Origin: Pirellulales bacterium
GTDB taxonomy: Bacteria; Planctomycetota; Planctomycetia; Pirellulales; JAEUIK01
NCBI GenBank assembly: GCA_019694435.1
Contig: JAIBBZ010000014.1
Location: 62,001-126,000 of the forward strand
Reading direction: 5' to 3'
Length of the DNA: 64,000 nt
Every line of letters starts with the position of its first letter. The first letter of the stretch is position 1. The position numbers and the translations under genes were made by a program. A model generated the notes under the pieces. The model had not been told where the DNA came from and did not search any database. It saw only the letters and a program-made list of their open reading frames with translations. Below, piece after piece: positions 14,750-33,256 of this stretch.

Positions 14750-15033
14750 GGGCAGTTAAACCCCGTTGGCAACCGGGGAAACGGCGTCGCTGGCACTGCG
14801 AGCCACGAGCTGCTGCGCTGGTGCTGAAGTCGAAATCGCGAACAACCGCGGGCGGCTTGGGGTGCGGTTCGTAACGGTTGTATGGCGGTTGTTTGCTGGC
14901 GTCTGCAAAGCGGAATAAGATCAGGTGTTGCGCGGCGTCGGTACTGTCTTTGCTGCCGCGAGTTGCGCGTTTCAGTCGCCGCACCGCCTGCGGCCCCATC
15001 TCGTCCCTGCTGCTACCCGTCGGGAAGCGTCCG

Positions 15034-18000: not shown

Positions 18001-18381
18001 AAGCCACCGAAGCCTGCCAAGGCACCTAAAGCACCGAAGCCCGCCCAGCCGAAGCGAAGCTGGTGGCCCTTTGGACGCAAAGCGAAGCCCAGTGAGGCCG
18101 CGGCCGGTGCAGCGGCTGTACCGTCGCCCGAGGCGGATCTCCCGCAAGTCGATCCGATCGACCAGTCAGGATTCGATCGTGAGGTGAGCTTCGAGGCGGC
18201 GGAAATGCCCGACGCGATTGAAATGCCCGCGGAACTCGACGCCGCCGAGCCAGGCTTCGAGCTACCGATCGAATTCGAAGAGCAGCCCGATGCCACGTCG
18301 GCTCCCAAAGCCGCCGAGGCGGCCGCGTCCGATGAAGATGAGGACGAGGACCTGCAGGAGTTTCTACGCGGGTTGCGGTAG
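15034..18381 (+). CDS. FHA-domain protein with a very long acidic disordered region
   Basis: A 1115-residue protein. Residues 1-95 form an FHA phosphothreonine-binding domain: GR at 26-27, SRQH at 41-44 and NGT at 63-65, the canonical contact residues. The remaining about 1000 residues are low-complexity, rich in Asp, Glu, Ala and Pro, with recurring short units such as DELD, FDFDA and DLSFE. Two basic Lys/Pro-rich islands interrupt the acid, each associated with an aromatic motif: WWPFGR at 711-716 (with SFWGRG at 751-756) and WWPFGR at 1010-1015. The C-terminus is DEDEDEDLQEFLRGLR. ATG 15034 starts directly before the FHA domain; the frame stays open upstream to 14878 without support. Probably a phospho-dependent scaffold; partners are unknown. 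Confidence 0.8.
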   Translation: MDVKLLLIEGRASRKQIKLRLPASVGRAADQWLRIDHRSVSRQHCELFERDGTLFVRDCGSANGTLVDDRPVQEEAIEPGQRLTVGPLVFEVMYERVNGVDNHPLPAADAAATLAVEAAPTVAADEPSEAEAAMVVSDEDSLDFDLAPAEHAELEITPDAPGSLPGDDEPLDFEHDEPVAMAAAAEPTVDEPMFAAEPVGEFESIELAEVPLAEPAGELDFDLQEELQASDLEPPAPAAPAAEEVDLVDSVGELLAPAVDEPSEEEFEPLELLDEAASAGFAVAEGELAPEAPEAADVIDFGFEDAAPAKVAAPESEAPVAFEPAAEMDDDDAQAASADAPLEDLVSDEDRMFSFDASEELDRGDEPRDARDWDEPSAEIFPLADDQPAVPASAVNDFDEAPTPLSDVLDEPLLEVASEPEAASANDALADAGLTVKDSAPTEIGPEAKYISIDDHAPVTDEDDFIFEGIDLEEPSDGPATRADEGVDELAVADISFEDEPATEQPVADELGADWGRTEPWTGDATVASGPVESTGGTVPVDTLDDDLSFESLGADVVQRAEADEPPASAPTPANISEDDALAFLDDDAPAAAPASAEAVDESAPAADEDESFFVDLDPPAATAEEVEVEPGEFEAFDAEPAPLDIPAAAADEAAELDFQDLSFDETSATPAPAEMALPGEELFDPSAGAVADANVIEADAKTQGAARRGWWPFGRSTKPSKPTKPAKPAAKKPPAKAKSPQPAPTAKKSSFWGRGKATANEAKAEVELPVEPSVEAIDDSPAVETGNPFATGHVLEPLELQQPDEAVLEFIADEPVPDGVTELAPSQETVRAADDFVLGSGPDANAKAEEIDFDFDAIDDAPTALASESELALPEPEAELSAVEFDADSAPLEEHFELSESPTRPVASAEVEFAADDDAVEAIDASSGSLPELAAAPGADATDIELDFSDDYSMVGSPDELAVSPPPAEAAEAPAGKSGKKVKKVKATKPPKPAKAPKAPKPAQPKRSWWPFGRKAKPSEAAAGAAAVPSPEADLPQVDPIDQSGFDREVSFEAAEMPDAIEMPAELDAAEPGFELPIEFEEQPDATSAPKAAEAAASDEDEDEDLQEFLRGLR

Positions 18382-18470: not shown

Positions 18471-20384
18471 TTAGCGCAGCTCAATCAGGCGATAGCGGCG
18501 CGCCAGGCCGTCGCCGTCGCGCCGCTGGTAGTCGTGCAGCGTGGCCAGGCTGGGATTCGAGCATCCGCGTTCGCGTTCGATCTGAGACTCGACGAGGCGC
18601 CACAATTCGTCGTCGAACATCTGCGGCGCTTCGGGCGCGGCGACCAAGAGCAGGTGCGAAAACCCTTCGGCGCGCAAAATTCGGCTCAGGTCGTCGGGAG
18701 CCACTCGCTGCCAGGGATTGCCGCGGCGCAGACGGTAGAGCTTCTCCCACGTGAACGGGCCCGCGAAATAGAAGCCGCGGTAGTCCTGGCTTAGAACGTG
18801 AGCGTGGCCGCCGCCGTACTGGTTCAACAAAGTTGCCGCCGGGTAGCTGGGCTCATGCGCGAGCAGGTAGTCGTCGCGGGCTTGCAGCCCGCAGGCCACT
18901 TGGACACGATCACCGTTCCACTTGAGCGCGGCCGCCGGCGTCAACAGCCCAACAAGCGCGACGCTGCCCCAGACGATCTCGCGCGGACCGCGCCTGAGTC
19001 GCGGAGATTCCGCGAGCACCCAGACGATGGCCGTCGCGGCCAACGGTACGACGGGCAATAAGAAGCGCACGTTTTGACGCAGCGCATACCACAGCAGGAA
19101 ATAGATCGCCGCGATCGCCAACAATTCGCCCAAACCCTGGAGCCGCCGCGCAACGACTAGGCCCGGCAGCAGCGCGAGCAGCAGCACGCCGAGCTGATGA
19201 CCGCGTCCGCCAAAGCGCTCGGGATGCATAGTGATCTGCCACGGCGCAGTGGCCAGCGCCGTAACGTGCAAGGGCAGGGGGGTCTTGCGGTCGGGCAAGG
19301 CCTCGGCAGCGGGTTCGCCCAGGTGAGCCGCAAAAAACGGATAGACCGGGTTCCCGCGATGCCAGGCGGCGCGCGCATACCACGGCGCGGCGACGACCAA
19401 TGCAGCACAAGCGGCGATCCAGCCCAACCGCAGGGCCGCTTGATGCGCCGCCGAGCCTTGGAGGGCACGCCAAACAACGACCGACACCAGCGCTACGATG
19501 GCCAACGCGGCGAGGTATTTGGTTGCCAGCGCCGCGCCCAAGGTCAGCCCACATGCCAGGGCCCACGCGCCGGCTTGTTGCCCGTCGAGCACGCGCCGGT
19601 ACGCCGCCACGGCCAGCGCGACATAGGCCGCGGCCGCCAGGTCGTTCATGGGTACCGACATCTGGTTCGCCACGCCGGGCACCAGCAGCACGGCCGCGCC
19701 GGCGATCCGCGACCAGCGCGCACCCAGCAGGGGCTCGGCCACGGCCATCGTCGCCAAACCGAGCAGCAGCCCCGCTAGCCAGTGAACCAGCGTCGCGGCT
19801 GGTGCATCGGCCAAGGCGAGCGCCCACAGGTACCACATTTCGGCGAGCAGCGGAAACGTGCACTTGTCGTGATCAGGCAGGTACAGCAATCGGTGCTCGG
19901 CAAGAAAACGTTTTGGCAATTCGAGATGGTAATAGAGCGCGTCGCCCGCGGTGGGCGGCGCCAACGATCCCAACCACGTAATCGAGACGACCAAGGCGGC
20001 CAGGCCCATGGCGCCGTACCAGACCCAGCGCGGCGGTTCGGCCACGGCGGGCTCGTGGTTCGCGACGGCGTCGATCCGCTGATTACCGGTGGTGACGACG
20101 GCTTGCCGGGCGGCCAGTACGAAGACGGCGCCCTCGACCAGCCCCCACAACGCCGCGATCAAAGTCGCCAGGGCGAGAATCGGGACATAGAGCAGGCCGA
20201 GCAGACCCAACATCGCGACCGTCGATCCGGCCGCGGCCAGACCGAGGCCCCAGGTCCAGGCAGCAAGTGTCGCCCCAGACAGGCCGCGATCGATCTGGAG
20301 CCACCGCACCAGCGCGCGGCCCGCTCCCCCGGCGGCGAGGGCGATCAACCCCAGCGCGGTAAGCGATGCGAGGCTCGCGAGCAT
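18471..20384 (-). CDS. GT-C-type glycosyltransferase, membrane protein
   Basis: A 637-residue polytopic inner-membrane protein with about 12 hydrophobic segments. After three N-terminal segments it shows the catalytic first-loop signature of GT-C enzymes in PPTAGDALYYHLELPKRF, and further on PMNDLAAAAYVALAV and YARAAWHRGNPVYPFF, which resemble GT39-like proteins. The C-terminal about 130 residues are a soluble domain. ATG 20384 has CGGGAG upstream. It is the last gene of the minus-strand glycan cluster. It should transfer a sugar from a polyprenyl-phosphate donor on the outer face of the membrane; the sugar and acceptor cannot be told. Confidence 0.75.
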   Translation of the reverse strand: MLASLASLTALGLIALAAGGAGRALVRWLQIDRGLSGATLAAWTWGLGLAAAGSTVAMLGLLGLLYVPILALATLIAALWGLVEGAVFVLAARQAVVTTGNQRIDAVANHEPAVAEPPRWVWYGAMGLAALVVSITWLGSLAPPTAGDALYYHLELPKRFLAEHRLLYLPDHDKCTFPLLAEMWYLWALALADAPAATLVHWLAGLLLGLATMAVAEPLLGARWSRIAGAAVLLVPGVANQMSVPMNDLAAAAYVALAVAAYRRVLDGQQAGAWALACGLTLGAALATKYLAALAIVALVSVVVWRALQGSAAHQAALRLGWIAACAALVVAAPWYARAAWHRGNPVYPFFAAHLGEPAAEALPDRKTPLPLHVTALATAPWQITMHPERFGGRGHQLGVLLLALLPGLVVARRLQGLGELLAIAAIYFLLWYALRQNVRFLLPVVPLAATAIVWVLAESPRLRRGPREIVWGSVALVGLLTPAAALKWNGDRVQVACGLQARDDYLLAHEPSYPAATLLNQYGGGHAHVLSQDYRGFYFAGPFTWEKLYRLRRGNPWQRVAPDDLSRILRAEGFSHLLLVAAPEAPQMFDDELWRLVESQIERERGCSNPSLATLHDYQRRDGDGLARRYRLIELR

Positions 20385-20649: not shown

Positions 20650-21966
20650 CTAGAGAAACCGTAGTCCGCGGCCAGACCTGAGCTGCGCGGTGATCGAGCT
20701 GGAGCCGAGTTCCGCTTCGCGCCGCCGCGCGAGCAGATGTTCGATCCGCCGGCACACCAGCTCGGGCTGCAACTCGCTCATGCACGGATGCTCAGCCCAA
20801 AGACAAGTCGTGCGATGGCACGGGCTGCACCCTGGTTCCGTGCGGAGCACAGCCACGTGTGCACCTTGGGGGCGCCACTGAAGCACATGATTCGTGCCGC
20901 TGAACAAGACGATCGTGGGCACTCCCAACAAACCCGCTAGATGGGCTGGTCCCGAGTCGGCGCCGACGAACAGCTCGGCACGTTCCAGCAAGGCAATCAG
21001 TTCGAGCAGGCTCAAGCGCCCCAGCAGGTTTTCCACGTTGGGCCAGCGCGCCGCGCCCAGGATGCGGTCGGCCAGCGGCTGCTCGTCGGCCGTACCGATC
21101 AGCAGGATGCGTGCATCGTGGGCCAAGATCAGCCTTCCCAGCAGTTCCTGCCAGTGTGGGGCGGGCCATCGCTTAGCCTCGGTGCCCGCTCCCAAGTGAA
21201 CGACAAACACGGGACGGCGCGGCCGCGTGTCGGTCTGCAATCGTGCGGCAACGGCGCGACGCGATTTCAGATCGGGAGCCAGGTTGATCCGCCGTTGCCA
21301 AGGCTCGTCCACCTGGATTCCGAGCTGCTCGAGCAACGCCACGCGCGAGCGCCATTCAGGTCGGCCGGCGACATAGGGCGCGCTGTGCGTCAGCCAACAG
21401 CCACCGCCGCCGGCACTGAAACCTACGCGCCGCGGAATTCCTGCCAGCCACATGAGCAGGACGTGCGGCAGCTCGCCGCGGACGTCGATCGCCGCGTCGT
21501 AGCCCTCGCTGCGCAGCCGCAGGGCCCAGGAAACGAGCGACCAGGGCCAAAACCACGAGCGTGGACGCGAAAAGCGATTCACGCGCGAAACATAGACCCG
21601 GTTCACCTCACCGCAGGCGGCGAACAGTTCTGCCGTCCAGGCGCCGGCCAGGACGTCGATCTCCGCCTCGGGAAACTGCTTGCGCAGTGGACCAAACATC
21701 CCGAGCGAAATCACCGCGTCGCCCAGGTGATCGAGCTGAATGACCAACAGCCGGCGAATCGGGCGCGGCTCCTGCGCGCTTGGCGCCTGGTCGGCCACGC
21801 TGCGCCGGAGTGCGCCGTGCATGCGCATCAAGATTCGGGCAAGCGCATCGACCAGGCCCATGACCAGATGCCAGCGCCACCGCACGAACCGATAACGGCC
21901 CTGCTTCAGTTCGCGCCGCACTCGGCCACGCGCCGACCAGGATGCCGCGTTATAGGATCGCTTCAT
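20650..21966 (-). CDS. glycosyltransferase family 9 (heptosyltransferase-like)
   Basis: A 438-residue GT-B enzyme. Family 9 features are RRLLVIQLDHLGDAVISLGM near residue 70, FVVHLGAGTEAKRWP before the C-terminal domain and FVGADSGPAHLAGLLG with IVLFSGTNHVLQW, the nucleotide-sugar site. A Cys-containing segment GCSPCHRTTC near the C-terminus matches the pattern of many GT9 proteins. Such enzymes add heptose or related sugars to lipopolysaccharide core on the cytoplasmic side. The N-terminal about 65 residues are a basic extension. It overlaps the preceding GT4 gene by 17 bases, indicating translational coupling. Confidence 0.88.
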   Translation of the reverse strand: MKRSYNAASWSARGRVRRELKQGRYRFVRWRWHLVMGLVDALARILMRMHGALRRSVADQAPSAQEPRPIRRLLVIQLDHLGDAVISLGMFGPLRKQFPEAEIDVLAGAWTAELFAACGEVNRVYVSRVNRFSRPRSWFWPWSLVSWALRLRSEGYDAAIDVRGELPHVLLMWLAGIPRRVGFSAGGGGCWLTHSAPYVAGRPEWRSRVALLEQLGIQVDEPWQRRINLAPDLKSRRAVAARLQTDTRPRRPVFVVHLGAGTEAKRWPAPHWQELLGRLILAHDARILLIGTADEQPLADRILGAARWPNVENLLGRLSLLELIALLERAELFVGADSGPAHLAGLLGVPTIVLFSGTNHVLQWRPQGAHVAVLRTEPGCSPCHRTTCLWAEHPCMSELQPELVCRRIEHLLARRREAELGSSSITAQLRSGRGLRFL

Positions 21967-23086
21967 AAACCGCTTTCGTCGCTTGCGCCACGGCCCGCCA
22001 GGTGTAGCTCTGCCGGACGTGCTCGCTCAATTCCGGGCAGCGCGCGGCAGCGACCGCGCACTCGACAGCTCGGCGGATCGCCGCCGGATCGTCGGGCTGC
22101 ACGTAGTGCGCCCTGGTCCCGAAATACTCGCGGGCACAGCCCCGTTCGGTGATCACCAGCGGCGTGCCGGTCAGTGCCGCCTCGAGCGCGGCGAGGCCCG
22201 GCGTCTCGAACCAACTCGCCAGCACCAGGCACCGACAAGCGGCATAGGCACTTGCCAGGAGCGGGTCGTCGTGCGCCAGCGCGGGCAAGAAGGTGACGTG
22301 TTCGCCGGCGGCTGCCTTACATGCCGCCAGGTAACGCTCCGCGCCGGGCACCGCATCACCTAGCAACACGAGCGGCAACGCACGGCCGGCCAATGCGCGA
22401 ATCAGAGCGAGTTGATTCTTGCGAGGCTCGATGCGACCGCAGCAAAGCACGAAATCGCGTAAACCAAAGCGCTCGTAGAATGCCTCGGGCGTCGCCGTGG
22501 CGAACCGCAAGTCGGTGCCGTTCGGCACGACCGCGATCCGGGCCCGGTCAATCTGGAATAGGCGCTGGAGCTGCGCGGACTCGGCGTGCGAGTTGGGCAG
22601 CAGTCGATCGGCGGCCCGATAGATTTCCCCGCGCCAACCGTTCGGCGCCCAGCCCAGCTCGCGGAGGCCAAGCGCGGCGCAACCCGCCACACGGCGTGCC
22701 AAGGGACGTTCTTCGCGCCACACGGCCTGCCGGTCGAACCAGGCGACCGGCGAGACAACCACGCGGACTCCGGCCGCCTGCGCCGCCGCGATCACCGGCC
22801 GATACTCGCGATGCGTGCCAACGAGATGCAGCACGTCGAGCCCCTGAAAACCATCTTCCCAGGGACGCCACGGTCGGGCATCGACCCCCAGCTCAGCGAG
22901 CGCCGCCGTCGTCGATGTCAATTGGACCTCGCCGCCGCCAGGCGCCGCGAACGCACCGAGACCACCCGCGAGGCGCACGCGCAAGGCGCGCCGCACCGGC
23001 GCCAGCGCTGTGGCGGCCAATGTCCGTGCGCGGCCGCCTGGTTTGCCTGCGCGGCGCTTGCGTGCCAGTGGCGTCATCCCTGCCAT
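21950..23086 (-). CDS. glycosyltransferase family 4
   Basis: A 378-residue GT-B enzyme. An N-terminal domain starts after a basic leader with AFAAPGGGEVQL, which resembles the donor-domain loop of GT4. The C-terminal domain carries DRLLPNSHAESAQLQRLF, IAVVPNGTDLRFA, VLCCGRIEPRKNQ and the EALLTGTPLVITERGC-like segment ALEAALTGTPLVITE. Cytoplasmic, retaining-type sugar transfer is expected. ATG 23086 has AAAGGATT upstream. It sits between a deacetylase gene and a GT9 gene on the same strand. Confidence 0.88.
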   Translation of the reverse strand: MAGMTPLARKRRAGKPGGRARTLAATALAPVRRALRVRLAGGLGAFAAPGGGEVQLTSTTAALAELGVDARPWRPWEDGFQGLDVLHLVGTHREYRPVIAAAQAAGVRVVVSPVAWFDRQAVWREERPLARRVAGCAALGLRELGWAPNGWRGEIYRAADRLLPNSHAESAQLQRLFQIDRARIAVVPNGTDLRFATATPEAFYERFGLRDFVLCCGRIEPRKNQLALIRALAGRALPLVLLGDAVPGAERYLAACKAAAGEHVTFLPALAHDDPLLASAYAACRCLVLASWFETPGLAALEAALTGTPLVITERGCAREYFGTRAHYVQPDDPAAIRRAVECAVAAARCPELSEHVRQSYTWRAVAQATKAVYEAIL

Positions 23087-23107: not shown

Positions 23108-24562
23108 TCAACTGCGCACGCGGCGCAGCGTCTTTTTCATCCAGCCACGAAGGCTCGTCGTATCGATCTCGTCGATCGGCGTTTCGCGCTCCCAATCGAG
23201 CGCTCGGCGCAGCCAGCCGCGCAGCCCTTCACGGCGATCGAGGCGCAGCGGGCGCGGCGTCGCGTCGCGCGCGCGGCGTTCGAACACTAGGGCATCCCAC
23301 GGCAACAGAAGCTCGCTCTCGTCCAGCGGCACTCGCGCGACGAGCTCGCCGCGCCAAAGTTCGCCGGACAGCCGGTAGTCGGCAGGCCGCGACTCGCAGG
23401 TCACGCGCAAACCATCCTCACACGCCCACGCGGACAACCGGACGCGACCACGCTGCCGCCACCAGGCGGCGAAATCAGTAAGCGTCGTCGGCCAGACCGA
23501 CGCCATCTCGTCGACCGTCTGCAACAGCCGCCGCAGCACATGCGGATACCGTCCGAGCCGGCCCGTGGGATGCCCGTAGAAGAAGATCGGCTCGCCGGCC
23601 AGGTAGCGTGCCCGGGCGACGCGTTCAAAATAGGCCGCTGCGAGATCGGCTGCCGCCGCCGGCGAGATCGCGGTGCCTGCGTCTTGCGGTGCCCGGTTGG
23701 CCGCTTCGAGAAACAGGCCCAGACACACCGGATGGACGGGAATCTGCAACACGCTCCGGCCGCCGGGAAAATAGGGAAACGCGTCGTAGGCCAGGCCGAA
23801 CTCGGAGCTGTGCGTGATTCCCAGCGATTCGAGCGCCGCCAGCAGGCCCGGATTGAATCGCCCATGCGGGGCGACGAAGCCGGAGACCTTGAGCCCCGCG
23901 CGGAGCAGTACGTCGATGCCGCGGCGGATGTTTTGCACGTTGAGGTCGCGCTCACGATAGGTGTGATGCCGGTAGCCGTGCGCGCCGACGTCACAGCCGC
24001 GCAGCGATTGCAGCGCATAGGGAAACCGCTCGAAATCGGCGGCGCAGACAAAATGGCTGGCCGCTTGCTCGTAGCCGCCCAAAGCGTGCAACGTGGTGCG
24101 AAAGTCGGCCGGGTCGTAATCGTCGTGGTCGACGCGGAAATTGAAGGCGCTGCGATAGGGAAATGGAAACGCGGCCAACCGCAGCCACACCCCGCCCGCC
24201 GCTTCGACCCGTTCACGCAGCCACGCCGCAATGCGCCGCGCCACGAGCCGCTTGTCGACGCGGGCAATCTCTTCGGTCAGTTCCAGGCCGCCCACCGCCC
24301 AAGACCCGCGCACCGTGTTCTCGTCGCACAGCGCGGCGAACGGGTCCTCCGCGAACTCGGCACGCAAGGGGTCGACGTCGATCGGCGTCTGGCCATTGCC
24401 GCAGCACGGCACCGACACGGCACGCGAGTCGTACAGGACAAAGCGCCCCAGGTCGTGGCCGGACTGGGCGTCGACCGTGGCGATGCCTTCCTGAGCCAGG
24501 ACTTGAGGCAGCGCGTCGGGCACGCGATCGAGCACCAGCGGCAGCAACGGCAAAGCGTTCAT
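23108..24562 (-). CDS. polysaccharide deacetylase-like protein
   Basis: A 484-residue protein. The NodB-type features are NFRVDHDDYD at residues 141-150 (catalytic and metal-binding Asp), GAHGYRHH at 193-200 (metal-binding His pair) and GFVAPHGRFNP. Residues 1-110 form a separate N-terminal domain and residues after about 400 a beta-rich C-terminal domain. Such enzymes remove acetyl groups from N-acetylated sugars. No signal peptide is seen, so it may act on cytoplasmic lipid-linked intermediates. ATG 24562 has a perfect AGGAGG and overlaps the stop of the upstream GT2 gene in the ATGA style. Confidence 0.8.
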   Translation of the reverse strand: MNALPLLPLVLDRVPDALPQVLAQEGIATVDAQSGHDLGRFVLYDSRAVSVPCCGNGQTPIDVDPLRAEFAEDPFAALCDENTVRGSWAVGGLELTEEIARVDKRLVARRIAAWLRERVEAAGGVWLRLAAFPFPYRSAFNFRVDHDDYDPADFRTTLHALGGYEQAASHFVCAADFERFPYALQSLRGCDVGAHGYRHHTYRERDLNVQNIRRGIDVLLRAGLKVSGFVAPHGRFNPGLLAALESLGITHSSEFGLAYDAFPYFPGGRSVLQIPVHPVCLGLFLEAANRAPQDAGTAISPAAAADLAAAYFERVARARYLAGEPIFFYGHPTGRLGRYPHVLRRLLQTVDEMASVWPTTLTDFAAWWRQRGRVRLSAWACEDGLRVTCESRPADYRLSGELWRGELVARVPLDESELLLPWDALVFERRARDATPRPLRLDRREGLRGWLRRALDWERETPIDEIDTTSLRGWMKKTLRRVRS

Positions 24563-25383
24563 CCACCTGCCTCCTGAACGACGAGGCGGTGCCAGGCGCG
24601 GCGCAGCGCCAGGCGCATCCCGGCGCCGCTGCCCGGCGCCCGCAGCGTGCGGTGGACAGTGGCAATCTCCGTGTAGGTCGACAACCCGCTCAGCAGGCAA
24701 AACAGCCACCCCTGCGGACCGTCGAGCAGGCCGAGCTTCAGGACCAGCCGGCGATACACCTCCCAAGCAGGTGCGATCCATTGTTCGCCGGCGCGCGGCG
24801 ACGCGCCCGCCTCGATCCGGGCAGCCGCGGACAGCGCGGTGTAGCGGCGCATCTTGGCAAGAAACATCGGCACATCGGCCAGCGTGTCGTGTTCCAACCA
24901 GCCGCCGAGCGAGCCCACTGAACCGCTCGGGCGAAGCTGCTCGTGGACGTCGCCCTCCCAGCGCGCGGTGTCGCGGCGAAACAACCGTAACGGTCGGTCG
25001 TCCTGAGTACCGCTGTAACGGAACGCGCGGCCGAAAATACGGCTGCGGATCGGCACGCGATAGGCCGCATGGCGTGGCGCGGCCAGCGTTCGGGCCAGCT
25101 CGTGCACCAGCGCCGGCGAGGGCGTTTCATCGGCATCGAGCGACAAGACCCAGGTGCCGCGAGCCTGGTCGATCGCAAAATTGCGCTGGGCCGCAAAACG
25201 ATCGAATCGCCGTTCGACTACCCGCGCGCCGTAGCGCCGGGCAATTGCGATCGAGTCGTCGCGCGAGCCGCCGTCGACGACCAGCACTTCCCCCGCCCAC
25301 GCGAGCCGGGGAAGCAGCCGTACCAAGCGCGGGCCTTCGTCGAGCACGATCATCGCGATGGACAACGCGGGAAGGCGGTTCAA
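24559..25383 (-). CDS. glycosyltransferase family 2 (WaaE/KdtX-like)
   Basis: A 274-residue GT-A enzyme. It begins MNRLPALSIAMIVLDEGPRL from a TTG start whose bases overlap the TGA of the upstream gene (TTGA). This overlap and the immediate start of the first beta strand support TTG 25383; the open frame runs upstream to 25686 without similarity. The donor-binding VLVVDGGSRDDS and the metal-binding LSLDADET motifs are present. The short length and ARYGARVVERRF-like segment resemble the lipopolysaccharide-core GT2 subgroup. Membrane-embedded segments are absent apart from a weak one near the C-terminus. Confidence 0.85.
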   Translation of the reverse strand: MNRLPALSIAMIVLDEGPRLVRLLPRLAWAGEVLVVDGGSRDDSIAIARRYGARVVERRFDRFAAQRNFAIDQARGTWVLSLDADETPSPALVHELARTLAAPRHAAYRVPIRSRIFGRAFRYSGTQDDRPLRLFRRDTARWEGDVHEQLRPSGSVGSLGGWLEHDTLADVPMFLAKMRRYTALSAAARIEAGASPRAGEQWIAPAWEVYRRLVLKLGLLDGPQGWLFCLLSGLSTYTEIATVHRTLRAPGSGAGMRLALRRAWHRLVVQEAGG

Positions 25384-26060
25384 GGCGCACCTCCGCACAG
25401 TCGCCGCGCGACGAGCACATACCGAACCATCCAGCGCAGGTTGTAATAGGAAGCCACGAAGATTAGTTCGGGCAGCCAGGCACGACAGACCAGGGCCGCC
25501 AACAGCAAATGCAAGCGCAAGTCGGCGTCGCCGAGTTCGTGATACAGGCGCCGCGCGCGGCTCGCCGCGCCCGGTGCCGCGCGGGCTCCGAGCGGCGCGG
25601 TCGAAGCCGCTACGACCTGCTCCTCGAAGCGCAACCCGGCGACCAAGAGATACTTGCCGACCACGAACGCCGCAAACAGCGCCCATACGGCCGATGAGAT
25701 TTCGGTCGCGAAGGCTGCCGCGATCCCGGCATGAATCGCGACGTCGCCCAGTTCGTCGACGTTGGCGTCGAGCCAGCCGCCCCAGGCCGTGGCGGTCGAC
25801 TGGCGCCGGGCCAGCGCGCCGTCAAGCCGGTCGCAGAGCCATGCCGCCCAGACCAGCGCGGCTGCGGCGAGGTGCCACGTCGGTGCGACGCACAGCATCG
25901 CTGCCGCCGCCAGCGTGCAAACCAGCCCTGCGCACGTAACTTGCCAGGGGCGCAACGAGGAGTGGGCCAGGCGATCGGCCAGCCACGCGGCCAGCGGCAC
26001 GGCGTGCCAACGGCTCCAGCGATGGCGGTCGTTCACGGCGATCGTCGCGCCCACGCTCAT
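25380..26060 (-). CDS. CDP-alcohol phosphatidyltransferase family protein
   Basis: A 226-residue integral membrane enzyme. The family motif is complete: D77, D80-G81, A84-R85, G94, D98 and D102. These enzymes displace CMP from a CDP-alcohol by an alcohol acceptor, making phosphodiesters such as phospholipids or inositol phosphates. ATG 26060 is preceded by GGAAGGA. It is linked by a 4-base TTGA overlap to the following GT2 gene, which argues for a role in glycolipid or surface polymer synthesis and not in bulk phospholipid synthesis. Substrate unknown. Confidence 0.85.
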   Translation of the reverse strand: MSVGATIAVNDRHRWSRWHAVPLAAWLADRLAHSSLRPWQVTCAGLVCTLAAAAMLCVAPTWHLAAAALVWAAWLCDRLDGALARRQSTATAWGGWLDANVDELGDVAIHAGIAAAFATEISSAVWALFAAFVVGKYLLVAGLRFEEQVVAASTAPLGARAAPGAASRARRLYHELGDADLRLHLLLAALVCRAWLPELIFVASYYNLRWMVRYVLVARRLCGGAP

Positions 26061-26088: not shown

Positions 26089-27234
26089 CTAGACGGTCGC
26101 GGCATGCGTGCCGACGTCCTGGTCGGCAGCTTCGTGCAAACGGGGTGGCGAGGCTTCCTCGAGCCCCAGGAGGCGCCGGTAGCCGGGCACCGTGGCCTGG
26201 TGCAACTGGCCTCCCATCTGATCGGGCGAAAAACGGTGGAAAAACTGCGACTCGCGGCGGACATGACGCCACCACTCGCGACTGAACAAATACCGGGTAG
26301 GCACAGGATGCCGCTCGCCCGATGTCTCGTTCGCTTCGCGCAGGCGCAACCACGCCTGCGGCAGCGCGCGCCACAGCGCAAACCGCTCGCCCGGCGCTAG
26401 CCACGGAGCCCGCAGGACTTCGCGAACCAGGCGGACGGCGATCCCGGTCCACATGCGCAGGCGATGTTCGGGATGCAGCAGGTTCTTGAACTGGAACAAC
26501 AGCGTGTTGCGCAACGCGAGCCGCTCGCAGCCGCGCTGACCAAACTCGTGCTTGAACGTCGCGGCGCCAATGTGCGTGGCCTTCGACTCGGGCACATACC
26601 AGCCGACGTAGCCCGCCTGGTACGCGCGATACGACAGGTCGAGATCCTCGAGGCGCCCTGGCAGGTAGAGCGGGTCGTACCCGCCCAGCTTGAGGAACAG
26701 CTCGCGATCGACGGCCAGCGCGGCGCCGGCCGAGGCGGTCAACCCGGGGCGATCGATCCCCTCTTCGTAGCCGATGAAATCCCAGGTGGCTTGTACTAGT
26801 CCCCACGACCAGCGCACGGCCGTGCGAAAGCCTTCGTAGCCCTGGTCGTCCAACTGCCAGCATTGGCCGGCGGTGAAGAACAATCGGTGACGGCCGCTGA
26901 TCGTCGGGTCGAGCAGCGGCTCGACCAACGGATCGATCGCGTCCGGGTCGAGCTGCACGTCGTTGTTCAACAGCACGGCCACCTGGCCATCGAGTTCGCC
27001 GAGCACGGTGTTGTACGAGCACAGTCCGCGGTTGTCGCGCTCGAACACGCGCACCTGCTTGAAATGCGCCGAGAGCAACTTTCGCGAGTCGTCCTGCGAA
27101 TGATTGTCGATCACCACGACGCGGCACTCATAGCGCGAGTTTGCCGCGGCGCGCACGACGCTCGGCAGACACTGCTCGAGCAGGTGGCGCCCGTTGTAAT
27201 TCAAGACGACGATTTGGATCGGCATGGCGGCCAT
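26089..27234 (-). CDS. glycosyltransferase family 2
   Basis: About 381 residues. The GT-A core begins with PIQIVVLNYNGRHLL, followed by VVVIDNHSQDDS and VAVLLNNDVQLDPDA, the metal-binding region, and later YLPGRLEDLDLSYRAYQAG, the ED motif of rhamnosyl- and related GT2 enzymes. The segment after residue 250 is helical and may pack on the membrane. The start is either ATG 27234 (MAAMPIQ) or ATG 27225 (MPIQ); there is no decisive ribosome-binding site. It lies 28 bases before the CDP-alcohol phosphotransferase gene. Confidence 0.87.
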   Translation of the reverse strand: MAAMPIQIVVLNYNGRHLLEQCLPSVVRAAANSRYECRVVVIDNHSQDDSRKLLSAHFKQVRVFERDNRGLCSYNTVLGELDGQVAVLLNNDVQLDPDAIDPLVEPLLDPTISGRHRLFFTAGQCWQLDDQGYEGFRTAVRWSWGLVQATWDFIGYEEGIDRPGLTASAGAALAVDRELFLKLGGYDPLYLPGRLEDLDLSYRAYQAGYVGWYVPESKATHIGAATFKHEFGQRGCERLALRNTLLFQFKNLLHPEHRLRMWTGIAVRLVREVLRAPWLAPGERFALWRALPQAWLRLREANETSGERHPVPTRYLFSREWWRHVRRESQFFHRFSPDQMGGQLHQATVPGYRRLLGLEEASPPRLHEAADQDVGTHAATV

Positions 27235-27354
27235 CCGTTGCCGGCACATGACTGGAATGGACGCTCGGGGTGCTAGCACCGCGTGCGCAATGGCAAACGG
27301 GCCGCAAGGTAGGTGAGCCGCTGCGACGGGGTCAAGACGAACGGCCGCGTGCTA

Positions 27355-29784
27355 TCACACCCGGCTCGCACCGCGCGTGCTGGCGCGTTTTGGCGGAGGG
27401 GTCGCGGTGGGCGCATCGACGCGCCAGCGACTGCCATCCTGACGCAAGGTGCTCCCCGCGGGGGGGCCATACCAGTCGGCGAACTCGCGTTCGGCGTGGC
27501 CGGAGACCAGGTCGCGAACAACGACCGCGACGGCCAGCAACGCGGCAACCGGAGCGAGGCAGCCCAGCAAGACCCGCGAACCCAGCAAAGCCCGGTCACC
27601 CGTCGCCCAGGTGAGCAACGCCACCAGGCCCAGGACCAGCATGAGCACGTGCATTTCGCAGAGCTTGCGCACGAGGTGACCCGGCCATCGATGCGGTTCG
27701 CGCGGCCACGCGGCCGGCGGTTGCGGCGCGCAGCCGCCGGCCCCGCGAACGATCAGTTCGCCCTCGACCCATTTGAGCCGCTGGACGAACGCCTTGTAGC
27801 GCGCATCGTGCCAGAGGCCCAGGCACAGCAATCCCAAACCCCAGAGCAGACCGGCCGCCATCCACACGGGGTTCAGCGTCGTGCGAAACACACCCCAGCC
27901 CAGTCCTAGCGGTACGAGCAGATGCACGACGTGATGCATGAGATAGTCGAGTTGCACACCGTCGAGCGAGGCCGTCCGACGAAACCGTGCCAATTGACCG
28001 TCCACGTGATCGAGCACATACCAAAGCTGCAAGAGCACCGCACCCGCGAGCAACGCCGAGGGCGTACCGACTGCAAGGCAACCGGCCGCCGCGATGGCTA
28101 CGACCAACGCCAGGCCCGTGGCCTGATGGGCCGTAAGTCCCCAAGGCGCCACGAGGCGCGTCACCTGCAAGGCAACGGGCCGCGCGACCCAGCGCGCGTA
28201 CGAGTTGCCGAGGTGGTCGGCGCCCGGCTTATGACACCGCGCGCGCCATTCTTCATTCGACTGCGGAAATTCCTCGTCTGCCGCGCGACGCGGGCGCCAG
28301 GCCAGCCCCAACACGCCCGCGGCAACGGCTATCATCACCACCGATCGCCAGGCGACGCTCAACCAGGCGATTGGCGCCGTGAGCTCGACTTGCAGTGCCC
28401 AGGCGGCAGCGAACAACACCACGGCCGGCAGGATGACGCGCTCGAGATAGTGCCGCCGCTCGACGGCCGCCAGCTCGACCCAAAACGAATAGCGTACGAC
28501 AAGCACGGCGTAGAGCGTCTGCCCGAGGCCCACGGCCAGGGCCAGGGCCGCGATGCCGTGGCCGGAGAAGATCGCGACCAGGTTGAGTCCCGCTCCGACG
28601 ACGACCGATGCCAGCACGATTCTCAACAGCGCGCGTTGGCGATCGATCGTGATCAGATACTGGCTCGCCGGCAGCGCGATCCCGAGCGCGATCGTCCCGC
28701 CGACGAGCCAAGGCAAGCCGAGCAGGCCGGTCCGATACTCCGGCAAGACCAGGCCGAGCAACGGCGCGCCGAGCACGATCGCCATCGCGCCGATGACTGC
28801 CAGGAGAGCGGTCTGCTGACCGCTGGCCAACGCGGCCAGAGCCGCCACGCTGCGCGTGTGGCCGGTGCGCCCCAGGATCTCGCCATAGCGTGGTCCCATC
28901 ACGGTGGCCAGCGCATTGGCGACGCCGAACATCTGCCCGGTGGCCAACAGGGCCGCGCTATAGAGCCCCAACTGCAACTCGCGATCGGGCATGAACATCA
29001 AAATGGTCAGTCGGTCGAGCGAGCGAAACAACTGATTGGCCAGGGCCGCGAGTAGGATCGGAAAACCCACGGCCAACAGCCGTCGCATCTCAACTCGATC
29101 CCAGGCCAGCATGGGCCGCGAACCCGTTCCGAGCGTCACATACGCCGCGCAGATCAGGCCCACGACCAGGCTGCCCAGGTACAGGCCCGTCAGCCCCCCG
29201 AGCGCCGCGGCCACACCGCAGATCAACAGCGTCAAAGCCGCTTCGAGGACCGTGACCGTGGCCGTCGTCGCGAAGCGTTGATGCGCACGCAACACCGTGA
29301 CCTGATAGGTGAGGAACCGCTGCACGACGCACAGCAGACCCGCCACGACCAGGGCCGCGCCCCATGCCCGGCCCGAGGCGCTCGTACTCGTGAAGGCGAG
29401 CGCGCTCCCGCAGCACAGCAAAGCGGCGCCACAAACCGCGCTGCTGATCGTGTTGACGGTAAACGCCAGGTTGGCCGAGCGTGCGGCCGCCGGCGCGTCG
29501 CCGCGCCCTAACGCAATGGTCATCTCGCGGCTCGCGCCGCGGCTGACTCCCAGGTTGCTCAGGTTGCCGTAGTTGACCACCAAACGTACGCCTTGCCATA
29601 GCCCGATCTGCGCGGGATCGAGCAGCACCCGCAGGAGCAGGCTCGTGACGGCGCCGAAGGCCTGCCCGACGAGGGTCGAGCCGCTGACCCATGCCGTGTC
29701 GCGCCAGATGCGCCGCCACGGAGAGCCGGTTTTCTCGGCGATCGGGTGCTTGGCTGTTGCGGCCGATGCGTGCACGCAGTTCAC
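27355..29784 (-). CDS. fusion of polysaccharide flippase and CDP-alcohol phosphotransferase
   Basis: An 809-residue membrane protein with two parts. Residues about 25-495 have 12-14 hydrophobic segments in the pattern of Wzx-type lipid-linked oligosaccharide flippases (opening WRDTAWVSGSTLVGQAFGAV). Residues about 520-740 form a CDP-alcohol phosphotransferase domain with D592, D595-G596, A599-R600, G609 and D613; the fourth conserved Asp is replaced by His617 (LDYLMHH). A soluble, partly basic tail follows. The start is GTG 29784, overlapping the upstream stop as GTGA. I do not know this fusion from established pathways. It would place a phosphodiester-forming enzyme and its transporter in one polypeptide. 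Confidence 0.8.
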   Translation of the reverse strand: MNCVHASAATAKHPIAEKTGSPWRRIWRDTAWVSGSTLVGQAFGAVTSLLLRVLLDPAQIGLWQGVRLVVNYGNLSNLGVSRGASREMTIALGRGDAPAAARSANLAFTVNTISSAVCGAALLCCGSALAFTSTSASGRAWGAALVVAGLLCVVQRFLTYQVTVLRAHQRFATTATVTVLEAALTLLICGVAAALGGLTGLYLGSLVVGLICAAYVTLGTGSRPMLAWDRVEMRRLLAVGFPILLAALANQLFRSLDRLTILMFMPDRELQLGLYSAALLATGQMFGVANALATVMGPRYGEILGRTGHTRSVAALAALASGQQTALLAVIGAMAIVLGAPLLGLVLPEYRTGLLGLPWLVGGTIALGIALPASQYLITIDRQRALLRIVLASVVVGAGLNLVAIFSGHGIAALALAVGLGQTLYAVLVVRYSFWVELAAVERRHYLERVILPAVVLFAAAWALQVELTAPIAWLSVAWRSVVMIAVAAGVLGLAWRPRRAADEEFPQSNEEWRARCHKPGADHLGNSYARWVARPVALQVTRLVAPWGLTAHQATGLALVVAIAAAGCLAVGTPSALLAGAVLLQLWYVLDHVDGQLARFRRTASLDGVQLDYLMHHVVHLLVPLGLGWGVFRTTLNPVWMAAGLLWGLGLLCLGLWHDARYKAFVQRLKWVEGELIVRGAGGCAPQPPAAWPREPHRWPGHLVRKLCEMHVLMLVLGLVALLTWATGDRALLGSRVLLGCLAPVAALLAVAVVVRDLVSGHAEREFADWYGPPAGSTLRQDGSRWRVDAPTATPPPKRASTRGASRV

Positions 29785-31511
29785 CGTGGTTTGGCTACGC
29801 CTGAGACCGGCGACGGGACCTGGCGGCGCGGCTCCGCGCGCGATTCGGACAGCAACAGATCGGCAATCTGCATCGACGCAGGGCGAGCGAGATGAGCAAA
29901 CACTTCGCGGCTGGGCGGTTCGGTGCGCCCCGTGCCGAGCGCACGGCAGAGCAACACCTGCAATTCATCTCGACTCCGCGCCGTGCCAAGCATGCCCCAC
30001 ATCTTGGCCGGCAACAGATCGGCCGAACCCGACGGCATGACCTGCACGACGGGCACTTGTGCCAACGTGGCCTCGATCCCTGCGCTGCTTCCCATGCTGA
30101 CGACGGCGTCGCTCGCGGCAAACAATTCCCACAACGGGCGCTGCGCAACGAATGTCACTTCCAGCCCCGGCTTCGACGCGGCCAGCGCGCGAAACGGCTC
30201 GCCGGTGGCAGCGCGCGGGTGCAGCTTGACGGTGAGCGTCGCGCCCAGCGTCTGCGCGACGTCGTAACACCACTCGATCATCGCGCGGTACGACTGGGGC
30301 GTCTTGTGATACGCGACCAGGTCAGGCCGCTCCGACTTCGGCGGCGGCGTGGCCAGCAACAGCAGCCGCGCCTGGCCGCATGGCTGCCGGTTTCGCTGAG
30401 CGGCGATCTGCGCCGACAGCTCGTCGTGCCAGGGCGACCCGGTCACGGCGATTCGCTGCGGTGGAATTCCCCAATCGACCAATTGCAGACGTGCCACGTT
30501 TCCCCAGGCCAAGAGCCGGTCGGCAGCCAGGGGAGCAAACGCAAAACGAATTCCCGGCGCGGCATTCTGCACGACGCTGCTGGTCACGCCGGCGCTGCGC
30601 GCGGCCGCGACCGCTGCGCGGGCCAGGGGGGTGGCATCTTCGTCGAGCACCAGATGGTCGGGCCGCAGCCGGTGAAGATGCGCGGAAACCTGGCCGAGAA
30701 TTCTTGCTTGTTGCGCGCCCGATGCCTGGACCAGGCGTTCGAGCCGCTCGTCCAGCAGCGGCGCCAGATCGAGACCCTCGAACACCAGCGCCGCGTCGCG
30801 CCGCCGCTTGGGGAGCGAGCCCGCGTCGGCCAGGCTGCCGTTGCAGACGATTTGCTCCACACCGCGGCCTTGCCAGTGCCACCAATTGCCGACCGCGAAG
30901 CGATCGTAGAGCCAGGCCACGCGACACCTGCGGGCGAGCAACTCGGCGCATAGCGGATTGAGCAGCCGGGGATTACCGCACAACACGACCAGCGGCGTGG
31001 CCCCGCGCGCACTGCCCACGGGGCGTGCCAGCCATGCGCCCGCCGCGCGTCGCCACCATCGATTCGGCGGGGCGCTCGCGCATGGCGCGCGACGCGCTTC
31101 GTGCCAGACCAAGTCGATGGGGACCTCGCGCGCCGCGCCCCAGGCGCGGGCCAAGGCGGCCACGTCCTCATCGCGGCCGCGCTCGACGTGGCAGACCAGC
31201 GGCACTTCCAACTCGGCCTGATGGCGATCGAGCCAGGTGACGATCCGCAGCAACTTGACAAACCAATAGCGCAGGACAAGGGCATTCAAGCCGCAGACCG
31301 TCGCCAGCGTCTCCGGATCGCCCTCGGGACCGGCCGCTTCGCTCGCCAGGTCGCTGGCGGCGGCATCGAGCCAGCGGTAGCGCGAGTCGAGTTCTTCGTC
31401 GAGGGTCGTCCGCGTGGGCGCCGCCGCCGGCCAAGTGCCTTCGAGCAACAGCGCGGCCCGCGGCCCTACGGCGTCGGTCGGCGCCAACCCGAGATGGGAG
31501 TAGATGTCCAT
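29781..31511 (-). CDS. GT-B-fold transferase of CDP-glycerol glycerophosphotransferase / surface-glycan type
   Basis: About 576 residues from ATG 31511 (MDIYSHLGLAPTD); GTG 31550 would add 13 residues. The C-terminal half has the signatures of the teichoic-acid/capsule GT-B group: VKLHPRAATGEPF, with KLHP, then AASDAVVSMGSSAGIEATLA and a short PVVQVMPSG. A middle segment, LAWGNVARLQLVDWG followed by VTGSPWHDEL, matches the same group. The N-terminal half is poorly conserved. It could transfer glycerol- or ribitol-phosphate or a sugar to a lipid-linked chain. It overlaps the flippase fusion by 4 bases. Confidence 0.75.
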   Translation of the reverse strand: MDIYSHLGLAPTDAVGPRAALLLEGTWPAAAPTRTTLDEELDSRYRWLDAAASDLASEAAGPEGDPETLATVCGLNALVLRYWFVKLLRIVTWLDRHQAELEVPLVCHVERGRDEDVAALARAWGAAREVPIDLVWHEARRAPCASAPPNRWWRRAAGAWLARPVGSARGATPLVVLCGNPRLLNPLCAELLARRCRVAWLYDRFAVGNWWHWQGRGVEQIVCNGSLADAGSLPKRRRDAALVFEGLDLAPLLDERLERLVQASGAQQARILGQVSAHLHRLRPDHLVLDEDATPLARAAVAAARSAGVTSSVVQNAAPGIRFAFAPLAADRLLAWGNVARLQLVDWGIPPQRIAVTGSPWHDELSAQIAAQRNRQPCGQARLLLLATPPPKSERPDLVAYHKTPQSYRAMIEWCYDVAQTLGATLTVKLHPRAATGEPFRALAASKPGLEVTFVAQRPLWELFAASDAVVSMGSSAGIEATLAQVPVVQVMPSGSADLLPAKMWGMLGTARSRDELQVLLCRALGTGRTEPPSREVFAHLARPASMQIADLLLSESRAEPRRQVPSPVSGVAKPR

Positions 31512-31610
31512 CGCGCCGCATGCTCCTTCGAGCGCGATCGAGCTGGCCACGACGCGCTCGCGCCGCCGCGCGTTCCGGAAGGGGATCGCGGCGCCGTTCG
31601 ATTGCCCTGG

Positions 31611-32357
31611 TTACGCGGCGTGGTCGCGATTCAAAACAGCCATCCGCTGCCGCAATTCCGGCTGATGCTGCAGCAGCTCGGCAATTCGCTGCCAATCAAG
31701 CTGCTCGGGACCCAGCGCCTCGTAAATCTCCAGCGCGTGTTCCCAATCCTCGACGTGGTCGAGCTTCAGCCGCAGGTCTTCGCGATCCATCTCGGCCGGC
31801 AACGGAACCAGCCGGACCTGGAAACGCTCGGGATGCGAGTAGAGAAAACGGGTCATCTGCGCGCGTTCGGCAGGCGAGGTTGCCAATCGATTGGCCGTTT
31901 GCAGCGCCTCGGCCCGGCACCACTCGGCCACCAACCCCAGCGACGACATCACGGCCGACCGCCCCGAGCGCGAGCTATAGGTGATGTAATCGCATTCGGC
32001 GTGTTGTTCGCCCGTGCTTACCAAGCGATCGATCAAGGCCGGATCGACGAAGGGATTCTCGGCCTGCAACCGCACGACTGCGGCCGGGCGATAGGCGTCG
32101 AGCGCCTCGCAAGCCCGGGCCAGGGCGTCGCGGGCGTGCGAGTGAAACACCTCAACGTCGGGCGGCGTCAGCCGGGCGAGTTGTTCCCAGTCTTCGCCGC
32201 GGCCGAGCACGACGACGACGTGCGACAACCGCGTGCAATCGGTCACGCGGCGTACGACCCATTCCAGCAAGGTCTTGCCGGCAATGCATCGTTCGGCGTA
32301 ACGGCGCCACCACGGCGCCAGGGGATTGGCTTCGATAATGCCCAGTGTGCGCTGCAT
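31611..32357 (-). CDS. SpsF-like cytidylyltransferase family protein
   Basis: A 248-residue nucleotidyltransferase-like protein resembling the CMP-NeuAc synthetase/SpsF group: the GT-A-like fold with VVVRLQAENPFVDPALIDRL (PxxxP...D motif) and the C-terminal LRLKLDHVEDWEHALEIYEAL block that is typical of SpsF. The canonical N-terminal signature with the CTP-binding Arg and Lys is only partly seen (GIIEANPLAPWWRRYAERCI). Such enzymes activate a sugar or alcohol phosphate with CTP. Downstream genes encode two CDP-alcohol phosphotransferases, so it could supply their CDP-activated substrate. ATG 32357. Confidence 0.78.
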   Translation of the reverse strand: MQRTLGIIEANPLAPWWRRYAERCIAGKTLLEWVVRRVTDCTRLSHVVVVLGRGEDWEQLARLTPPDVEVFHSHARDALARACEALDAYRPAAVVRLQAENPFVDPALIDRLVSTGEQHAECDYITYSSRSGRSAVMSSLGLVAEWCRAEALQTANRLATSPAERAQMTRFLYSHPERFQVRLVPLPAEMDREDLRLKLDHVEDWEHALEIYEALGPEQLDWQRIAELLQHQPELRQRMAVLNRDHAA

Positions 32358-32499: not shown

Positions 32500-33189
32500 C
32501 TAGCACGCTTCCTTGCGTGCCGGAAACGCCGGCCGTTCGAGCCCCAATACGGCGTACAGCCGCGGATCGCAGAGCGTTTCGAGCCGCAGGTGCGCCCCCG
32601 AAAAGTCGTGATCGGCGCTGTGCTCGCCCGGCACTGCCAGGGCCAGGGTGCCAGCCGCCACGGCCGCCCGACAACCGTTGGCGCTGTCTTCGAGCACCAG
32701 CACGTCGGCCGGTTCACGCCCCAACCGGGAGGCAGCCTTGAGGTAAATCTCCGGGTGGGGCTTGCCCTGCACGACGTCTTCGGCGGTCAACAGAAACTCA
32801 AACCGTGGCTCCCAGGAAAACCGCCCCAACACGTCGACGACAAACGCGCGGCCGCTGCTCGTGGCCACGGCCTTCGGGATGCCCGCCGCTTCGAGCGCCG
32901 CGAGCAACTCCACGACGCCCGGCATGGGCGCGAGCCGCGTGTCGAGCAGTTCGACGAAGATCTCAGCGCTCTCGGCATTCAACTGCTCGACCGTCGCATC
33001 CAACTGGTGCCGGTCGATCATCAATTGCAGCGACACGCGCGCCGGCCGGCCCATCATCTCGTCGAGCAATTGCTTGGTGATCTGGCAGCCGCGCCGCCGC
33101 AGCAACTCCTCACCGACAATCGGGTACAACAGTTCGGTATTGAACAACAGGCCATCGAGGTCGAACACGACGGCGCGCGGTCGTCGCAT
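32500..33189 (-). CDS. HAD-superfamily phosphatase (beta-phosphoglucomutase-like)
   Basis: A 229-residue HAD-IA hydrolase. Motif I is VVFDLDGLLFNTE (Asp10, Asp12), motif II KAVATSSGRAF, motif III around QGKPHPEIYLKAA and motif IV DVLVLEDSANGCRAA. The helical cap between motifs I and II fits the beta-phosphoglucomutase/phosphatase subgroup. ATG 33189 is supported by GGGAG upstream; the frame extends to 33222. It should hydrolyse or transfer phosphate on a small sugar or polyol phosphate, and the neighbouring cytidylyltransferase suggests glycan precursors. The stop lies 142 bases before the next gene, which has its own candidate promoter. Confidence 0.87.
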   Translation of the reverse strand: MRRPRAVVFDLDGLLFNTELLYPIVGEELLRRRGCQITKQLLDEMMGRPARVSLQLMIDRHQLDATVEQLNAESAEIFVELLDTRLAPMPGVVELLAALEAAGIPKAVATSSGRAFVVDVLGRFSWEPRFEFLLTAEDVVQGKPHPEIYLKAASRLGREPADVLVLEDSANGCRAAVAAGTLALAVPGEHSADHDFSGAHLRLETLCDPRLYAVLGLERPAFPARKEAC

Positions 33190-33256
33190 CGGGTTCTCCC
33201 GGGCAGAATCTGCAACGCTCACCAGGTACTTCCCTCCCTGCGGACGTAACGAGGAA

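Follow-up and report, generated by a model that had tools for sequence, protein, structure and literature searches.

A planctomycete family of predicted CDP-alcohol phosphotransferases with histidine in place of the fourth aspartate, fused to a putative flippase in one genome

A fused gene in a predicted surface-glycan cluster

The analysed window, a stretch of 64,000 nucleotides (G000:C14:62001-126000), lies in a 6.1 Mb, 90-contig assembly of planctomycete type. On its minus strand, positions 27355..29784 form a single open frame of 809 codons (809 amino acids) running from GTG to TGA, with the GTG start overlapping the stop codon of the upstream gene as GTGA. The first-pass annotation had described this frame as joining a Wzx-like transporter and a CDP-alcohol phosphotransferase (CDP-AP) domain, and profile matches to both halves bore this out. 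The N-terminal part (residues 1-497; 28294..29784, minus strand) matched PF13440 (Polysacc_synt_3) over residues 102-302 with 44.8 bits against a cut-off of 23 bits, aligned end to end with stand-alone flippases at 40-46% identity across its whole length (alignment A4), and gave an all-helical AlphaFold2 model (pLDDT 85.7, pTM 0.84). Judged from sequence and model, this half is predicted to be an all-helical membrane protein and a complete flippase of the MOP/Wzx type. Residues 498-516 (28237..28293, minus strand) form the junction, which has no in-frame ATG, GTG or TTG near the expected start of the phosphotransferase, and residues 517-796 (27397..28236, minus strand) form the CDP-AP part, hereafter CDPH. 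This part was delimited by an alignment (A1) and a fold model, both described below, and matched CDP-AP models weakly: NF040950 reached 35.5 bits over residues 540-632, where its equivalog cut-off is 180 bits, and relatives likewise scored far under the cut-offs (NF045883, NF040950). Against PF01066 (cut-off 22 bits), the window's domain scored 25.4 bits and those of two relatives 22.8 (L065) and 20.8 bits (L052).

A pattern scan placed the signature motif of CDPH, D592-x2-D595-G596-x2-A599-R600-x8-G609-x3-D613-x3-H617, at 27934..28011 (minus strand). It reads DHVDGQLARFRRTASLDGVQLDYLMHH, with Asp at 592, 595 and 613 and His at 617, so that the motif does end in D613 and H617 with exactly the numbering first given. 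The H617 codon, at the place of the fourth Asp, occupies 27934..27936, and that of a second histidine, H618, occupies 27931..27933 (both minus strand). The DxxxH CDP-AP pattern matched once in the window and in none of 100 shuffles.

The genes on either side lie on the same strand. Upstream are a HAD-family phosphatase-like gene (32500..33222; PF13419, 103.7 bits), a PF02348 cytidylyltransferase-like gene assigned by profile match and cluster comparison (31611..32357) and, directly before the fused gene, a GT-B-like surface-carbohydrate enzyme (29781..31550; PF02350, 31.2 bits; weak TIGR04396). Downstream, a GT2 glycosyltransferase (26089..27279; PF00535) separates the fused gene from a second CDP-AP, CDP2 (25380..26060; PF01066, 45.3 bits), whose motif at 25755-25832 reads DRLDGALAR..G..LDANVDE; a second phosphotransferase with a complete DxxxD motif is thus indeed present two genes downstream, as had been pointed out. 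It is followed by another GT2 glycosyltransferase (24559..25410; profile match and cluster comparison), a polysaccharide-deacetylase-like gene (23108..24592; weak PF10096/PF01522), a GT4 glycosyltransferase (21950..23086; profile match and cluster comparison), a GT9 heptosyltransferase-like gene (20650..21966; PF01075, 114.4 bits) and, at the cluster end, a PMT-like membrane glycosyltransferase (18471..20384; weak PF13231/PF02366). On the plus strand, the window also holds a very long acidic, Ala/Glu/Asp-rich ORF (14878-18381) with an FHA-like N-terminus and late basic KKPAK stretches.

Comparison of 30 loci gave the following order on the coding strand: [HAD], cytidylyltransferase, [NeuB or HAD in some], GT-B, flippase, CDPH, GT2, CDP2, GT2, deacetylase-like, GT4, GT9 and PMT-like. 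Many of the 30 loci are cut by contig ends, and within this limit the cytidylyltransferase was counted in 17, GT-B in 20, the flippase in 21, CDPH in 29, GT2 in 19 and CDP2 in 12. From its gene content, the conserved cluster is predicted to be a surface-glycan assembly cluster. One locus (L063/G064) carries the cluster with the flippase and without CDPH, and three (L054, L061 and L064) carry CDPH without a cluster-type flippase nearby, which indicates that the two genes need not always occur together; the linkage between CDPH and flippase appears strong but not absolute. In two loci (L065 and L067) the cluster includes CDPH and lacks CDP2. In most orthologues of the PF02348 cytidylyltransferase, as in the window's own copy, the nucleotide-binding loop is degenerate and poorly conserved, while L052 keeps QARLGSRRLRGK; the cluster's protein may be catalytically inactive or changed in function. 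A NeuB-type synthase lies in the cluster at L052:13159-14274 and L053:4597-5646; it is absent from the window, and the window's own genome has one on contig C17. One further locus (L036, JABMRB010001388.1) is labelled Candidatus Nealsonbacteria, but its CDPH, GT2 and CDP2 look Pirellulales-like and it is probably misbinned. A phosphonate pathway in the window's genome was considered and rejected, the TIGR02320 match of 117 bits lying far under the cut-off of 319.6. Searches for P0001 in plasmids and for CDPH in phages gave no match.

In the relatives, the flippase and CDPH are encoded by two distinct, adjacent genes of the same strand, in many cases with an ATGA overlap or a gap of a few bases. 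The 196 genomes of the order and the genome_contigs matches yielded no further fusion, and there was none in six other genomes of the family, all of them outside the window's genus. The fusion had been counted as part of the novelty of this locus, with further cases to be looked for; by these comparisons it appears to be private to the window's genome and of minor weight, the conserved unit being two adjacent genes. As a family trait it was ruled out, since relatives have separate genes. The histidine being real, the fused frame itself could be an assembly or sequencing artefact of two adjacent genes. It is known from one metagenome-type draft assembly with no same-genus comparison, and 40 of 270 simulated single-base indels leave a nearby ATG for a separate gene, restoring two overlapping genes as in relatives, so that the fusion could reflect a single-base assembly error. 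Against this, the junction has neither a homopolymer nor an in-frame start near the beginning of CDPH, and GC3 is high on both sides and of coding type throughout. Moreover, in three relatives (L065 in G125, L037 and L055) both genes already share one frame with a single stop codon between them, so that a fusion needs little change. A sequencing error, raised at the outset as a possible explanation, could not account for the histidine; for the fusion, a single-base assembly error at the junction is conceivable, but it is not the explanation we prefer, and we consider an artefact improbable.

Conservation of the histidine and predicted fold of CDPH

A search of the 196 genomes of the order and the genome_contigs collection retrieved about 30 homologues of the enzyme half, and all read D-x2-DG-x2-AR-x8-G-x3-D-x3-H. 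Alignment A1 comprised 28 proteins from separate Pirellulales-type genomes, the others being 34-49% identical to the window's protein. In this alignment D592, D595, G596, A599, R600, G609, D613 and H617 were invariant (28/28), H618 was kept in 27 proteins, and D660, K664, R669 and E710 were conserved in 27-28. The codon of H617 was CAC in 23 homologues and CAT in 5; the use of both with the residue unchanged argues that H617 is held by selection. This synonymous change, together with the conservation in all 28 proteins, rules out a point error or a pseudogene as the origin of the histidine. The invariance of the three aspartates D592, D595 and D613 and of the Gly and Arg residues likewise speaks against a dead enzyme. 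Among the other CDP-APs of the order, the fourth Asp was kept in 29 PgsA-like, 5 PssA-like and 4 CDP2-like proteins by direct match and in 4 of another type by eye, a few fetched loci having no readable motif. With histidine in every member of A1 and Asp in the order's other CDP-APs, H617 is thus a family-wide rule and no mutation, and the sequence comparisons make CDPH a well supported candidate for a lineage-specific CDP-AP subclass. All 28 proteins hold the first seven residues of the CDP-AP signature (D1xxD2G1xxAR...G2xxxD3) and depart from the strict eight-residue form by the change of D4 to His, while the fold is shared.

The fold of CDPH was modelled with AlphaFold2 from 16 input sequences, giving six long helices and a small C-terminal hairpin (pLDDT 88.1, pTM 0.83). 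The top structural matches of the model were all CDP-APs. AF2299 with CDP (4o6n) was the best of them (Z 19.0, rmsd 2.8, 202 residues), followed by IPCT-DIPPS (Z 17.1), MtPgsA1 (Z ~15-16) and CHPT1/CEPT1 (Z ~11-13); the other CDP-AP matches ranged from Z 8.7 to 18.9, consistent with the six-helix membrane fold. A sequence profile again ranked AF2299 first (62.7 bits) and aligned its fourth Asp to H617.

CDP-alcohol phosphotransferases without the fourth aspartate outside the family

The search for other DxxxH variants that had been suggested was productive, since the histidine of all 28 Pirellulales-type homologues was joined by sporadic cases outside the order. Outside the CDPH family, DxxxH was read in L050 (Patescibacteria), L090/L155, L092 (another planctomycete lineage) and L083/L084 (a virus-labelled contig), and these outside members do not keep H618. 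Across 246 genomes of the phylum, true DxxxH CDP-APs were present only in the window and in G275 (L092), the other four matches being due to chance, and of 13 pattern matches on viral contigs only L083 was a real CDP-AP. The contig concerned (L083/L084/L157), classed as viral in IMG/VR, carries the DxxxH CDP-AP gene amid phage-like genes. Two genomes of the order (G028 and G011; loci L031 and L032, respectively) encode a CDP-AP subfamily that reads DLCDGE.GR and ends in D-x3-H, its second Gly being preceded by a spacer of about 17 residues where CDPH has 8. A literature search, with subscription journals mostly outside its reach, found no paper on a histidine at the fourth-Asp place of CDP-APs.

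Other residues also occupy this place. Glycine was found in a protein of Lactiplantibacillus plantarum encoded in the EPS cluster of plasmid pSN35N-3, directly after tagD (L149/L154), and in Parabacteroides (L151), and alanine in Streptomyces and Nonomuraea (L150/L152/L153); where annotated, these are just 'CDP-alcohol phosphatidyltransferase family' proteins. Such Gly and Ala variants indicate that a base at the fourth-Asp place is not general. The DxxxH CDP-AP of G670 lies in an apparent phosphonate-glycan cluster (L155:1184-8465) with a PEP mutase fused to a nucleotidyltransferase, a TPP decarboxylase, an Fe-ADH, a second nucleotidyltransferase and a capsule-type glycosyltransferase; other bacteria are known to activate phosphonates by nucleotidylation for use in surface glycans (PMC6697681). 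In a Streptomyces operon (L172:5312-12367), the CDP-AP lacking the fourth Asp follows a nucleotidyltransferase (cytidylyltransferase) and an Fe-ADH_2 and has a GT2 and an ABC-2 exporter as neighbours. The operon also encodes a second, full-motif CDP-AP, fused to DUF5941, which would make it a striking parallel to the pair of CDPH and CDP2. Taken by their gene contents, these neighbourhoods suggest that CDP-APs of this kind may draw on polar donors (CDP- or CMP-alcohols) and have glycans as acceptors.

In a phylogenetic tree, the CDPH clade (98/95) fell within a group without the fourth Asp (84/88), beside AF2299/DIPPS. Omission of the site's own columns dissolved this larger group, so that a single origin of the loss, which had weak tree support to begin with, was not upheld; one or several losses may have taken place.

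Proposed role of CDPH and comparison with known enzymes

The fourth Asp of CDP-APs has been called absolutely conserved and regarded as the probable catalytic base (PMC4634129), but opinions differ on what exactly it does (PMC8633023, PMC10182977). Its change to Asn nearly abolishes activity in MtPIPS (D93N, PMC4634129), and in PgsA1 it ligates the second Mg2+ (PMC6506517). CEPT1 in which the fourth Asp is replaced (D158A) retains ~15% activity, whereas D136A and D154A leave almost none (PMC10156783). In CHPT1 the proposed base is a different histidine, one residue after the third Asp (PMC10182977), and for PSS, water has been proposed as the route by which the proton departs (PMC8633023).

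The reading we favour, to which sequence and model together lend about an even chance, is that CDPH is an active membrane CDP-AP of a lineage-specific subclass, working in a surface-glycan cluster with H617 in a catalytic role. Histidine is a poor ligand of Mg2+. D592, D595 and D613 would bind the CDP donor together with one metal or more, and H617 would take over the job of the fourth Asp, either deprotonating the acceptor hydroxyl or binding a second, softer metal. On the cytoplasmic side of the membrane, the acceptor or product would be a glycan carried on a lipid, or the lipid anchor of such a glycan, and the neighbouring flippase, here fused, would move the lipid-linked product across the membrane; the single reading frame would hold enzyme and flippase together. 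This reading is favoured by the motif present in all 28 proteins, by the CDP-AP fold and by the neighbouring CDPH and flippase genes within the order, as well as by the fourth-Asp-less CDP-APs found beside tagD, phosphonate-glycan genes, or cytidylyltransferase, Fe-ADH, GT2 and ABC exporter genes. The residual activity of CEPT1 D158A (PMC10156783) and the proposed histidine base of CHPT1 (PMC10182977) point the same way. It is weakened by the near inactivity of the MtPIPS mutant (PMC4634129) and the role of D4 as second-Mg2+ ligand (PMC6506517), and also by the Gly and Ala relatives, the non-obligatory pairing with the flippase, and the degenerate loop of the cytidylyltransferase, which bears on the source of the donor. 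The first-pass annotation had offered the histidine as an alternative base or as the mark of a subclass; the subclass stood, while the histidine as base is plausible but unproven. In its favour, H617 aligns with the fourth Asp in a well-folded site and a histidine base has been proposed for CHPT1/CEPT1 (PMC10182977, PMC10156783), but there the histidine is another residue and D4 is kept, and the Gly and Ala relatives make plain that no base need be present at this site.

The main rival accepts an active enzyme with the histidine present but not as base. The fourth Asp would be dispensable in glycan-type CDP-APs, the proton would pass to water, to another residue (e.g., E710 or D660) or to the substrate, and the histidine would serve as metal ligand or in packing. 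Consistent with this are the Gly of the Lactiplantibacillus and Parabacteroides proteins, the Ala of the Streptomyces and Nonomuraea ones, the activity left in CEPT1 D158A (PMC10156783), the water thought to take the proton in PSS (PMC8633023), and the conservation of D660, K664, R669 and E710. The retention of H617 through synonymous codon change and its recurrence outside CDPH instead suggest a specific imidazole function there, and we regard the rival as possible, though on the doubtful side. Less probable still, and in our view unlikely, is an ordinary CDP-DAG-using phospholipid synthase of the PIP-synthase kind that makes a special lipid anchor and has an indirect link to glycans. The best named models for CDPH are archaetidylinositol phosphate and PIP synthases and AF2299 is its best fold match, but the scores lie far under every curated cut-off (35.5 versus 180 bits), the tree sets CDPH apart from PgsA- and PssA-type enzymes, and its neighbours are glycan genes, not lipid genes. 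Finally, CDPH is very unlikely to be a pseudo-enzyme that binds a CDP-lipid or glycan-lipid and aids the flippase while CDP2 (25380-26060) does the chemistry: the residue regarded as the base is lost, CDPH is frequently near a flippase, a complete CDP-AP accompanies it in 12 of 30 loci and Streptomyces likewise pairs a full-motif with a fourth-Asp-less CDP-AP, but pseudo-enzymes usually lose several signature residues, the other metal- and CDP-binding ones of CDPH are all invariant, and the two loci without CDP2 still carry CDPH.

Beyond the planctomycetes we suggest, tentatively and with rather less than even confidence, a multi-phylum CDP-AP subclass that moves phospho- or phosphono-alcohols onto glycan lipids with the histidine as base or soft-metal ligand, one planctomycete copy being tethered to the flippase of its product. 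If such a histidine subclass exists, the four-Asp, two-metal mechanism would not be universal. A natural family that always has His, set beside Gly and Ala relatives, offers a direct test of whether the fourth residue acts as base, metal ligand or neither. With a known fold and an altered catalytic signature, CDPH allows a rule taken for granted across a large enzyme family to be examined by straightforward mutagenesis. The family also suggests that CDP-APs of planctomycetes, a group whose surface glycans are little known, may decorate or anchor glycans in connection with export.

Among solved relatives, AF2299 (PDB 4o6m/4o6n) and the Archaeoglobus IPCT-DIPPS (4mnd) share with CDPH the six-helix core and the same spacing of D1, D2, G, AR, G and D3. 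They differ in having the fourth Asp, in carrying N-terminal soluble domains and no flippase, and in an identity of only ~18%. The PIP synthases MtPgsA1 and RsPIPS have the CDP-AP fold (Z 15-16) and the first seven signature residues, whereas their fourth Asp is present and needed (D93N, PMC4634129), their donor is CDP-DAG and they stand alone. Eukaryotic CHPT1 and CEPT1 also share the fold (Z ~11-13); they feature a proposed histidine base and a polar CDP-choline donor, with D4 partly dispensable in CEPT1 (PMC10156783), but unlike in CDPH their histidine is the residue next after D3 (G2ExxD3HxxD4), and they retain the fourth Asp (PMC10182977). The N-terminal half of the fusion resembles Wzx-type flippases of the MOP superfamily (PF13440) in its over-cut-off match and full alignment, and only the fusion continues into an enzyme at its C-terminus. 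Finally, the CDP-APs of L. plantarum, of G670 and of the Streptomyces DUF5941 operon resemble CDPH in that the fourth Asp is replaced (by Gly, His and Ala, respectively) and that cytidylyltransferases, glycosyltransferases and exporters adjoin them, but they belong to other phyla and are unfused, and their loss of the fourth Asp need not go back to one ancestor.
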